This document shows positions 57,920 to 61,621 of a DNA stretch of 64,000 nt, piece by piece. Source of the stretch: Bacteroidales bacterium (lineage in GTDB: Bacteria; Bacteroidota; Bacteroidia; Bacteroidales; VadinHA17); NCBI GenBank assembly GCA_020201035.1, contig JAIVHO010000034.1:1-64000 (forward strand), in the 5' to 3' direction. The stretch's first letter is position 1. Each line of letters begins with the position of its first letter. The notes below the pieces were generated by a model. It ran no database searches. It had not been told where the DNA came from and saw nothing but the letters and a program-made list of their open reading frames with translations. The position numbers and the translations under genes are program-made.

Positions 57920-58930
57920 ATGAAAAAGATCCACCTTTCAATCCTTACAATAGTTCTCCTTATAACAGGATGCTCCTCGGCCCGAATCAGTTTTGACACC
58001 CTGGCCCCATCTCCTGTCTATATACCCTCTGATATCAAAAATGTAACCGTCATTAACCGTACCGTTCCTGAAAACAGTGAGGTCAACAGGATCGAAGGGA
58101 TTATAACCGGAGAGGGTGAGGGAGATGACATTGCATTCGCTACCCTGGTTACGGCTCAACTTACAGATAATCTAAACCGGTCTGACCGCTTCAGTGCAGG
58201 TCATTCAGATAAGGTATTGCCTGGCTCGGGGATAGGGGGAGTCCTTCCCTATCCACTGCCCTGGGAGATGGTTACTGACTTATGTAATGAATCGGGAACA
58301 GATGCATTGATAGCCCTGGAATCGTATGATTCTGATTTTACAGTTTCTGCAGCTCCTGCAATGGGAGCAAATGCACTGGGTATAGGTACCGCCGCCAAAA
58401 CAACTGTTAGGTGCGGGTTCAGGTTCTACTACCCGTCAGAGAGGATAATCCTTGATGAGTTTATCTTCTCGCATCAGCTTTCCGCTGACAATACAGCTCT
58501 GCCGGTGTTAGGTACTATAAATTCAATTGCCAGACGTAAGGAGGCCATCATGAAAGCCAGCAGTCAGGCCGGATCTGTCTATGCTTCAAGGGTGCTCCCA
58601 AACTGGATACTGACAACCAGGGAGTACTATAAAAAGGGGAAAGGAAACCCTGATCTTGAAACAGGAGCCAGGATGATGGAGCTCAACCGGTGGAACAATG
58701 CCATTGAATCACTCTCCGCTGCAATGGAGTCGGGTCACAGAAAGGTGAGAGGAAGAGCTGCACATAATCTGGCAATAGTATACGAGATACTGGGAGATCT
58801 GAATAATGCTTCTGAATGGGCTGCAGTTGCATGGGGTGAATACCGTGAAAAAAGGTCAAGAGAGTACAGTCGGCACCTTAGGGACCGCATAAACCAGCAA
58901 AGGCTCCTTGAACAACAGCTAAATGAATAA
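57920..58930 (+). CDS. DUF6340 family lipoprotein
   Basis: A 336-aa lipoprotein: signal peptide with lipobox LITGC (Cys18). The DUF6340 pattern PSPVYIPSDIKNVTVINRT follows the Cys, a hydrophobic YPLPWEMVTDL segment lies centrally, and a TPR-like helical pair (RWNNAIESLSAAMESGH, KVRGRAAHNLAIVYEILGD) is at the C terminus. DUF6340 is a Bacteroidota family of unknown role, probably at the outer-membrane inner leaflet. Its 3' end is followed by the TrpB2 attenuator region. Confidence 0.85.
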   Translation: MKKIHLSILTIVLLITGCSSARISFDTLAPSPVYIPSDIKNVTVINRTVPENSEVNRIEGIITGEGEGDDIAFATLVTAQLTDNLNRSDRFSAGHSDKVLPGSGIGGVLPYPLPWEMVTDLCNESGTDALIALESYDSDFTVSAAPAMGANALGIGTAAKTTVRCGFRFYYPSERIILDEFIFSHQLSADNTALPVLGTINSIARRKEAIMKASSQAGSVYASRVLPNWILTTREYYKKGKGNPDLETGARMMELNRWNNAIESLSAAMESGHRKVRGRAAHNLAIVYEILGDLNNASEWAAVAWGEYREKRSREYSRHLRDRINQQRLLEQQLNE

Positions 58931-58977: not shown

Positions 58978-58985
58978 TAATTTTG
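58978..58985 (+). promoter_or_regulatory. -7 promoter element of the trp leader
   Basis: TAATTTTG, an exact TAnnTTTG match, 12 nt before the ATG of the leader ORF. A TTG at 58953-58955 lies 22 nt upstream, slightly longer than the usual 19-21. Confidence 0.55.
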
Positions 58986-58997
58986 ACCCCTGTGAAA

Positions 58998-59069
58998 ATG
59001 ATAAAAGGACATAATTGGTGCTGGCACGGTAAAAAAAATATTACTGTGAGCAATGCTGTTATGTTATGA
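58998..59069 (+). CDS. 23-aa tryptophan leader peptide
   Basis: An ATG at 58998 starts a 23-codon ORF ending TGA at 59067-59069. Codons 7-9 are TGG TGC TGG, i.e. Trp-Cys-Trp (HNWCWHGKK context), directly upstream of a TrpB-type gene. The ORF starts at a leader-like position just after a -7 box and is followed by a perfect hairpin. This is the classical arrangement of an attenuator where ribosome stalling at Trp codons senses tryptophan supply. Confidence 0.7.
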   Translation: MIKGHNWCWHGKKNITVSNAVML

Positions 59070-59096
59070 TATAGGATAAAAAATCCATCAGGAATT

Positions 59097-59126
59097 GAAA
59101 GGCACGCTGTTCACAGCGTGCCTTTC
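59097..59126 (+). promoter_or_regulatory. attenuator hairpin upstream of the TrpB2 gene
   Basis: Perfect 13-bp arms GAAAGGCACGCTG (59097-59109) and CAGCGTGCCTTTC (59114-59126) with loop TTCA. The T content downstream is modest. GGCACG in the 5' arm also occurs at 59023-59028, over the second Trp codon and the His codon of the leader peptide, so the Trp codon segment can pair with the 3' arm instead, giving alternative structures. Confidence 0.65.
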
Positions 59127-59173
59127 CTGTTTCAGGACCCCGGAATCATTACTAATCAATAAATAATTTAAAA

Positions 59174-60529
59174 ATGGAAAAGACAAGGAAATTTTTACTG
59201 GAAGAGAGTGAGATGCCAACAAGATGGTACAATATACAGGCTGATATGCCCAACAGGCCATTGCCCCCCCTTCACCCTGTCACCAGGGAGCCCATAGGGC
59301 CGGAGGACCTTGCCCCGCTCTTCCCGATGGAGCTTATAAAACAGGAGGTCTCAACAGAACAATATATAGATATTCCGGGTGAAATACTGGATCTCTACCG
59401 CACCTACAGACCCAGTCCGCTCTTCAGAGCGTATGGCCTGGAAAAGGCAATTGGTACAAATTGTAAAATATACTATAAGTATGAGGGGGGCAGCTATGCC
59501 GGATCTCACAAGGCAAATACCGCTATTGCCCAGGCATATTACAACAAGATGGAGGGGGTTAAAAAGATTACTACGGAGACAGGTGCCGGTCAGTGGGGAT
59601 CAGCACTCAGCTTTGCCTGCAACCATTTCGGCATTGAACTGGAGGTCTATATGGTAAGAATCAGCTATGACCAGAAACCATACCGCAAGCTGATGATGAA
59701 CACATATAATGCTACAGTTATTCCATCACCCAGCAATTTAACGAATTCAGGCAGAAAGATACTTGAGCAGTTCCCTGACTCACCCGGCAGCCTGGGAATA
59801 GCTATCTCTGAGGCTGTTGAAAAAGCTGCCTCTGACCCTGAAACCAAATATTCACTTGGAAGCGTTCTTAACCATGTACTGCTGCACCAGACAATCATAG
59901 GGGAGGAGTCACTGCTGCAGATGGAAAAAGCCGGTGATTATCCTGATGTTGTAATAGGATGCTTTGGCGGCGGATCCAATTTTGCCGGGATATCATTCCC
60001 CTTTATCAGGGAGAATCTTCTTAAAGGGAAAAAAACACGCCTGCTGACAATTGAACCTGCGTCCTGCCCCAAGCTTACCAAAGGGAAATTTATGTATGAT
60101 TATGGTGATACGGTTGGAATGACACCCCTGCTGCCCATGTACACTCTTGGTCACAATTTTATTCCGGCAAAGATACATGCCGGAGGCTTAAGGTATCACG
60201 GTGCAGGAGTGCTGGTAAGCCAGTTGCTTAAGGATGGCCTGGTTGAAGCAGAATCAAAACTGCAGAAGGATTGCTTTGAAAACGGGGTAATATTTGCACG
60301 GAGTGAAGGAATAATTCCGGCGCCCGAATCGACTTACGCCATAACGGGAGCTGTTGATGAGGCCCGGCGTGCAGATGCCGCCGGTACACAAAAGACTATT
60401 CTCTTTAACCTTAGCGGACACGGACACTTTGATCTTACATCCTACGAGAAATACTTCGCAGGAGACCTTGAAGACCATGAACTGACCGATCTTGATATTG
60501 AGAAGACACTGTCAGAAATAACCTTCTGA
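59174..60529 (+). CDS. trpB: TrpB2-type tryptophan synthase beta-like enzyme
   Basis: A 451-aa PLP enzyme of the TrpB2 branch. The PLP Lys is Lys113 in AGSHKANTA; the phosphate-binding CFGGGSNFAG segment and the C-terminal SGHGHFD segment are present. TrpB2 proteins form tryptophan from indole and serine and often stand apart from trpA. No other trp gene is in the window. Regulation by a tryptophan leader attenuator is strongly suggested by the upstream leader peptide and hairpin. Confidence 0.93.
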   Translation: MEKTRKFLLEESEMPTRWYNIQADMPNRPLPPLHPVTREPIGPEDLAPLFPMELIKQEVSTEQYIDIPGEILDLYRTYRPSPLFRAYGLEKAIGTNCKIYYKYEGGSYAGSHKANTAIAQAYYNKMEGVKKITTETGAGQWGSALSFACNHFGIELEVYMVRISYDQKPYRKLMMNTYNATVIPSPSNLTNSGRKILEQFPDSPGSLGIAISEAVEKAASDPETKYSLGSVLNHVLLHQTIIGEESLLQMEKAGDYPDVVIGCFGGGSNFAGISFPFIRENLLKGKKTRLLTIEPASCPKLTKGKFMYDYGDTVGMTPLLPMYTLGHNFIPAKIHAGGLRYHGAGVLVSQLLKDGLVEAESKLQKDCFENGVIFARSEGIIPAPESTYAITGAVDEARRADAAGTQKTILFNLSGHGHFDLTSYEKYFAGDLEDHELTDLDIEKTLSEITF

Positions 60530-60571: not shown

Positions 60572-60591
60572 GGGGTGCCGGATGGCACCCC
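60572..60591. terminator. hairpin after the TrpB2 gene
   Basis: GGGGTGCC (60572-60579) and GGCACCCC (60584-60591) pair around a 4-nt loop. No long T-run; overlaps the start of the 30-bp tandem repeat and lies between convergent genes. Confidence 0.5.
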
Positions 60592-60639
60592 TTCCTTATT
60601 CAAAAAGCTGGATGGCACCCCTTCCTTATTCAAAAAGCT
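60580..60639. repeat. two perfect tandem 30-bp units
   Basis: Units 60580-60609 and 60610-60639 are identical (beginning GGATGGCACCCC, ending CAAAAAGCT). The unit includes the minus-strand gene's last codons (Gln-Leu-Phe-Glu-stop), so the duplication repeated the 3' end of the desulfhydrase gene beyond its stop codon. Confidence 0.9.
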
Positions 60640-61621
60640 GAATGGCCCCTCCGGTGTGGATAAAAAGAGTATCCTCTTCTCTGGCAAAAGCACCCCTGGC
60701 AGAGTAATCGAGCAGAGCAGCAGCAGCCTTTCCCGTATAGACATAATCCAGAAATACACCTTCACTGCGGGCAAACCTGGTTACCGCCTCCTCACATTCC
60801 GGGGTGTTAACCCTGTAACCGGCCCCCAGATAGTTGTCATCAACAATTACTGCCTTTTCCACCTCCTCACGGGCAAATTCATAATTATGAAACCGTAGCA
60901 ATGCAGCTGCAATGGCAGAGACCTTCTCCCTCTGCTCAACTGCCTGCCGGGCAACAGAAACACCGGTAATATCACCCTGCCAACCTGATATCAGTTTCCC
61001 TGCCACCAGCCCTGCCTGTGTTCCTGCTGAGCCCGATGCAACAAATATCCTGGAAAAGTCAACTCCCCGTTCATTACCATAACTGATAATCTCTCCCATG
61101 GCTTTTATATACCCCGTACTTCCAATATTGTCAGATCCTCCCACAGCCATAAAATAGGGATTACCGCCATCATTCCTCAGCTTTTCAATCTGCCTGCTAC
61201 ACAGATCCAGAATCTCACTCTCCTTTTCACTCTCAGTAAATTCAACTGAAGCCCCCACCAGCCTGTCGAGCAGCAGATTGCCGCCAGGCACTACCGGCTC
61301 ACTCCCCGATAGAATCAGATATGCATCCAGTCCCTTTACAGCCGCTGCTGCTGAAGCTATCCTGCACCAGTTTGACTGAACCGAACCGAAGGTGACAATT
61401 GAGTCACACCCCCTCTCCATAGCATCCCGGATCAGATAATCCAGCTTCCTGCTCTTATTGCCCCCGAATGCAAATCCGGTCATATCATCCCTCTTACACC
61501 ACAGTCTGGTTCCATACAGATCTGTAAGCACCGGCAATAGGTGTAGCGGTGTAGGCAGCACTGAAAACCCGCAGGAAGGAACACTCCCTGACACACCAAA
61601 AAGAATTTCCGGATCAACCAT
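60626..61621 (-). CDS. D-cysteine desulfhydrase / ACC deaminase family PLP enzyme
   Basis: A 331-aa fold-type II PLP enzyme. The PLP Lys is Lys56 in FAFGGNKSRKLD; a phosphate-binding SGSAGTQAGL loop is present, and the FIHTGG end is typical. Family members are D-cysteine desulfhydrases or 1-aminocyclopropane-1-carboxylate deaminases; the choice cannot be made here. The stop codon lies inside the second 30-bp repeat. Confidence 0.9.
   Translation of the reverse strand: MVDPEILFGVSGSVPSCGFSVLPTPLHLLPVLTDLYGTRLWCKRDDMTGFAFGGNKSRKLDYLIRDAMERGCDSIVTFGSVQSNWCRIASAAAAVKGLDAYLILSGSEPVVPGGNLLLDRLVGASVEFTESEKESEILDLCSRQIEKLRNDGGNPYFMAVGGSDNIGSTGYIKAMGEIISYGNERGVDFSRIFVASGSAGTQAGLVAGKLISGWQGDITGVSVARQAVEQREKVSAIAAALLRFHNYEFAREEVEKAVIVDDNYLGAGYRVNTPECEEAVTRFARSEGVFLDYVYTGKAAAALLDYSARGAFAREEDTLFIHTGGAIQLFE

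Follow-up and report, generated by a model that had tools for sequence, protein, structure and literature searches.

A predicted tryptophan attenuator with an almost leaderless start upstream of a stand-alone trpB2 gene of Bacteroidales

The Trp leader class known from Bacteroidota is Bacteroid-trp (RF01692; Weinberg et al. 2010, PMC2864571), which was noted upstream of the trp operon of Flavobacterium psychrophilum (PMC6414381). In the E. coli trp leader (RF00513, Trp_leader), the Trp codons are located in region 1, followed by the pairings 1:2, 2:3, and 3:4, and the stop codon of trpL lies between regions 1 and 2. In the Actinobacteria, an attenuator was predicted before the second trpB gene of Corynebacterium diphtheriae, trpB2A (PMC1262725); the accessible part of that report does not state the TrpB2 subfamily. 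Here, we describe a predicted Trp attenuator in front of a single trpB2 gene of a Bacteroidales bacterium. The window, i.e., the whole stretch of DNA that was analysed, comprises 64,000 nucleotides, and all features of the element are on its plus strand. A Trp leader peptide and attenuator before a stand-alone TrpB2 gene had been proposed in the first-pass annotation of this DNA. This proposal is upheld by the invariant Trp codons and the covarying hairpin described below, and the promoter box, the 23-codon ORF, the TGG TGC TGG motif, the 13-bp hairpin, and the trpB2 start are all found where it had placed them.

Like Bacteroid-trp, the element occurs in Bacteroidota upstream of Trp biosynthesis genes and combines alternative helices with a predicted Trp leader peptide whose ORF contains UGG codons. 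RF01692 gave matches under its cut-off (up to 39.2 bits, cut-off 49) exactly on the trpB2 leaders of relatives and no match up to E = 10 in the window. The differences are the target, which is a lone trpB2, and a leader ORF whose start codon is no more than about 2 nt away from the RNA start that is predicted. The order of Trp codons and helices is the same as in the E. coli trp leader, and two relatives match RF00513 weakly (35.3 and 33.0 bits, cut-off 41); the window gave no match to this model. Compared to E. coli, the phylum and the sequence are different, the start is predicted to be nearly leaderless, the target is a lone gene and not an operon, and the stop codon of the window leader (59067-59069) is located beyond region 2. 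Filing the element under RF01692 or RF00513 was rejected as the scores are under the cut-offs, although it probably works like Bacteroid-trp and may be related to it. With C. diphtheriae trpB2A, as far as described in the accessible text, the likeness is a predicted Trp attenuator before a second trpB gene, but there this gene shares its operon with trpA, and the phylum and the RNA sequence differ. In the literature covered, which did not include the supplementary target lists of Bacteroid-trp, we found no report of an attenuator on a stand-alone trpB2 in Bacteroidota. The type of switch is a known one, and its use on a lone trpB2 with an almost leaderless start looks new.

The gene downstream of the element (59174-60529, start codon ATG at 59174) encodes a stand-alone TrpB-like PLP enzyme of 451 aa. 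In a profile search, the product scored 714 bits against NF009057 (cut-off 366) and 622.4 bits against TIGR01415 trpB_rel (cut-off 518.85), and it stayed under the cut-off of TIGR00263 trpB (TrpB1). By the two curated profiles, it is a TrpB2. In the window, trpB2 is monocistronic, with the following gene (60626-61621) encoded on the other strand. Just after trpB2, at 60577-60636, a 30-nt unit containing part of a hairpin is present as a tandem duplicate with 97% identity.

For comparisons, TrpB2 orthologues of the same family and order were collected from whole genomes and named contigs, the named close relatives being uncultured Bacteroidales. By direct reading, the leader ORF extends from ATG 58998 to a stop codon ending at 59069 (23 codons) and encodes MIKGHNWCWHGKKNITVSNAVML. 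A GTG at 58992 is in frame with this ATG, and its position is the start conserved in relatives. The ATG assumed as the start in the first-pass annotation does exist, but the leader start codon is probably GTG 58992, which extends the leader-peptide ORF to 58992-59069. TGG TGC TGG is present at 59016-59024. Both predicted regulatory Trp codons (59016-59018 and 59022-59024) are TGG in 69 of 69 distinct orthologous leaders; the codon between them (59019-59021) is variable and reads TCG, CGC, TGG, TCT, TCC, TGC, and others. The leader start position and the Trp codons align in 26 relatives. An ATG ORF with at least two TGG codons within four codons occurs at the expected place in 24 of 28 close orthologues, compared to 0.6 in shuffles, and three of the remaining four have a leader ORF with a GTG or TTG start. 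Thus, a short predicted ORF with tandem or near-tandem Trp codons is found upstream of a trp gene.

The putative -7 promoter box TAATTTTG (58978-58985) corresponds to the Bacteroidota sigma-A consensus TAnnTTTG, and ATG 58998 is 12 nt after it. In 25 of the 26 orthologues aligned, the conserved leader start codon is preceded by a perfect TAnnTTTG that ends 4-6 nt upstream of it. In a later sample of 45 leaders of the family, some of which may share species with the first set of 26, this distance is 5 nt in 41. A sigma-70 promoter scan was discarded since it is uninformative for this phylum. In F. psychrophilum, the -7 box occupies positions -12 to -5 (PMC9723704). From the promoter spacing, transcription is predicted to start near 58990, 0-2 nt before the leader start codon, and hence the leader mRNA is predicted to be nearly leaderless. 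In the trp operon leaders and the more distant trpB2 leaders, the gap after the -7 box is mostly longer (up to 31 nt), so the near-leaderless spacing appears to be a feature of the window's trpB2 clade. In the phylum, about 3.7% of 5' UTRs are under 10 nt in Bacteroides thetaiotaomicron, and leaderless mRNAs account for 5.5% in F. psychrophilum (PMC9723704).

The leader of the window folds with z = -4.6 relative to dinucleotide shuffles. An unguided RNAalifold consensus recovered the 1:2 helix and the terminator. Region 1 (59016-59030), which includes the Trp codons, pairs with region 2 (59043-59058) via 59016-59020:59054-59058 and 59025-59030:59043-59048. The inner 1:2 helix has 98.1% of cells paired, with two-sided changes, and 96.0% over 69 sequences. 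In the window, the change at 59030:59043 retains pairing (U-A). The putative terminator hairpin (3:4; 59097-59126) is a perfect inverted repeat of 13 bp with a 4-nt loop and a closing G-C pair (59097:59126). Across the alignment it is 98.4% paired, with two-sided changes at 6 of 12 pairs. Taken together, inner 1:2 and 3:4 have 98.3% of cells paired and eight pairs with two-sided changes; no shuffle was as high. The first-pass annotation had suggested comparing the Trp codons and the co-variation of the hairpin in related genomes; we ran this comparison, and the Trp codons are invariant and the hairpin covaries.

The terminator tail (59123-59135) is a U-tract which is broken by C and G in the window genome, where it contains CTTTCCTGTTTC. 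In most relatives, there is a strong T-run of about six T, such as CCTTTTTTGTTTT. A caution about a weak T-run after the hairpin had already been given in the first-pass annotation and is correct. A simple terminator scan did not call the window site. As the U-tract is interrupted, termination at the window hairpin may be leaky.

Region 2 can alternatively pair with region 3 (59101-59117), which comprises the 5' arm, the loop, and the start of the 3' arm of the terminator. The predicted antiterminator consists of 59043-59049 with 59111-59117 and 59055-59057 with 59101-59103. This 2:3 pairing is retained in 96.9% of cells (26 sequences) or 97.4% (69 sequences), above all shuffles. Few of its pairs covary because the antiterminator sequence is highly conserved. 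A compensatory exchange from G-C to A-U is found at 59048:59112, and 59112 is a base of the terminator loop that is not constrained by the terminator. With the RNA masked up to 59036, which mimics a ribosome stalled at the Trp codons, the antiterminator (-22.6 kcal/mol) is preferred over the partial terminator (-18.9 kcal/mol) and is the best predicted fold until RNA polymerase reaches about 59121. In the unmasked leader RNA, regions 1 and 2 are predicted to pair and the terminator forms. Covariation supports all of the three predicted pairings, namely 1:2 between the Trp codons and region 2, 2:3, and 3:4, which are mutually exclusive. A different competing pairing had been proposed earlier, based on the motif GGCACG over the second Trp codon. 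The repeat of this motif is present at 59023-59028 and 59101-59106, but the pairing of 59023-59028 with 59117-59122 is unsupported: it is broken at 59028:59117 in 60 of 69 leaders and is 83.3% paired compared to 83.2% in shuffles. The conserved competing pairing is the one with region 2.

A covariance model (R1) was built only from trpB2 leaders and used to screen 60 relatives as well as 295 genomes from the order; a match of at least 56 bits was taken as a full element. In the window, R1 matches 58992-59131 with 99.3 bits, one of the lower scores among full matches. In the family, 77 trpB2 genes were examined, and 71 of them have the full element in front; these include the nine genes whose leaders were used to build R1, and some others may share species with the model contigs. 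In one further case (L232), a contig end truncates the gene. The other five trpB2 genes have no leader, and all of them are placed in aromatic operons (gene names were read from the sequence and not from a profile search). In L010, trpB2 follows pheA, aspC, tyrA, and aroF genes, and in L271, it comes after a gene of the chorismate-mutase type resembling the one in L010. In L266, L268, and L270, trpB2 is behind aroA, and the leader was lost. The terminator upstream of trpB2 is kept in L266, decaying in L268, and gone in L270. Leader loss is thus accompanied by terminator decay, as expected if leader and terminator work together. Elsewhere, the element stays with trpB2 though the neighbourhoods and upstream genes differ among relatives. 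In a quick tree of 130 TrpB2 proteins, nearly all of the 28 members of the window clade have the leader, as does a second Bacteroidales lineage, and most other Bacteroidota are without it. Parsimony gives about ten leader changes, an approximate number as the automatic leader criterion missed a few true leaders (L054, L063).

Among the R1 loci, 54 were examined, and 47 of these are located before trpB2, trpE, or trpB1. Another lies before cysK and has a leader rich in Cys. The remaining ones resemble ordinary terminators; the weak matches L186, L192, L193, L205, and L214 have neither a Trp leader nor a trp gene. The cysK locus (L206; G545:C131:15466-15606, minus strand) has the Cys-rich leader MKISAYISINCCWCCENTSKCKQFVNM and a terminator before cysK and probably cysE, which makes it a candidate cysteine attenuator in Bacteroidales. 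In the window's own genome, the second R1 match is the leader of a trpEGDCFBA operon and encodes MDFTINTNWWWLREIIDP. At this locus (L160; G000:C61:41000-50500), a terminator and a likely antiterminator are present. Hence, the genome carries a complete trp operon with its own predicted Trp attenuator and, in total, two predicted Trp attenuators. Two Trp-rich leader ORFs in tandem were observed near a trp operon leader in L037 (G029:C131) and L048 (G010:C4). Tandem Trp-rich leader ORFs are also found upstream of trpB2 in L018 (G023) and L024 (G003), the first of these having its own terminator. These four loci are candidate tandem attenuators.

We have high confidence that the element is a classical ribosome-mediated transcription attenuator which acts on the monocistronic trpB2 gene and senses the charging of tRNA-Trp. 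Transcription would begin almost exactly at the leader start codon, close to 58990, and a ribosome would translate the leader peptide in step with RNA polymerase. When charged tRNA-Trp is scarce, the ribosome would stall on UGG 59016 or 59022 and cover region 1. Region 2 (59043-59057) would then pair with 59101-59117, no terminator would form, and trpB2 would be transcribed. When tRNA-Trp is charged, the ribosome would proceed, region 2 would be covered or held by region 1, and the hairpin at 59097-59126 would terminate transcription. Since the stop codon of the window leader lies beyond region 2, the translating ribosome itself would sweep region 2. Stalling and termination are inferred from the sequence, and what we observed is the conservation of the codons, the helices, and the promoter spacing as well as the linkage to trp genes.

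The weak U-tract and the silent terminator scan would also fit a leader that acts on translation, as the first-pass annotation had considered, or on RNA stability, with a hairpin that is no working terminator here and with stalling that alters access to the trpB2 start. We consider this improbable because a strong T-run is present at the end of almost every orthologous hairpin and because the hairpin decays in the aroA-trpB2 operons that lost the leader. Moreover, the hairpin ends 47 nt before the trpB2 start codon, and no strong pairing sequesters this start according to folding. The broken tail, along with the comparatively low R1 score, can also be taken as a sign that a genuine attenuator of the clade is decaying in this genome, which would leave it leaky and trpB2 largely constitutive. 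This is unlikely, though to a lesser degree, as the Trp codons, regions 1 and 2, and the 13 pairs of the terminator have all been retained, including the U-A pair at 59030:59043 and the G-C pair that closes the stem.

The hairpin is located downstream of the gene at 57920-58930 on the same strand, and it could belong to this gene as its terminator, or be a genomic repeat, with the WxW ORF arising by chance. We give this hardly any credence, given that ORF and hairpin follow trpB2 across differing upstream genes and that WxW is invariant. An origin as a repeat element was ruled out since, apart from the trp operon leader, the genome yielded no further full match to R1. A further alternative concerns the enzyme and not the switch: Trp would be sensed, but TrpB2 would mainly use a substrate other than indole, and Trp starvation would only be the signal. 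In NCBIfam, the family is named merely TrpB-like PLP-dependent enzyme, and TrpB2 enzymes have been reported to use O-phosphoserine (Busch et al. 2014, cited in PMC11917138). Against it are the leader control that trpB2 has in common with trpE and trpB1 operons and the improved growth of an E. coli trpA mutant with B. thetaiotaomicron TrpB2 (BT_RS23500), credited by the authors to indole from neighbouring cells (PMC11535334). In addition, the window's own genome encodes a tryptophanase, TnaA (L218; G000:C25:223635-224987; NF053783 with 799.6 bits, cut-off 750), which is a likely internal source of indole. We therefore regard this alternative as doubtful, although it deserves slightly more weight than a decaying attenuator.

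From the indole benefit of Bacteroides TrpB2, the predicted Trp-responsive control, and the presence of tryptophanase and a trp operon, the salvage of indole is the most likely role of TrpB2. It is probably a Trp-making enzyme that most likely salvages free indole and is induced at low Trp alongside the separately attenuated trp operon. We lean slightly towards a Bacteroidales-family-wide class of attenuators which is dedicated to stand-alone trpB2 genes, has its promoter positioned to give an essentially leaderless leader mRNA, and makes TrpB2 a starvation-induced enzyme for indole salvage. Many other Bacteroidota trpB2 genes are without any such leader, which counts against the attenuator reading of the window element, as do the interrupted U-tract, the position of the leader stop codon, and the small number of covarying antiterminator pairs.

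If true, leaderless initiation would couple leader translation directly to transcription initiation. The near-leaderless leader ORF would be a natural case for leaderless mRNA in attenuation, in a phylum with few leaderless mRNAs. With trpB2, a complete trp operon, and a tryptophanase in one genome, indole salvage is directly testable. The in vivo role of stand-alone TrpB2 is uncertain in bacteria, and a dedicated Trp attenuator would be genetic evidence for its use at Trp shortage.
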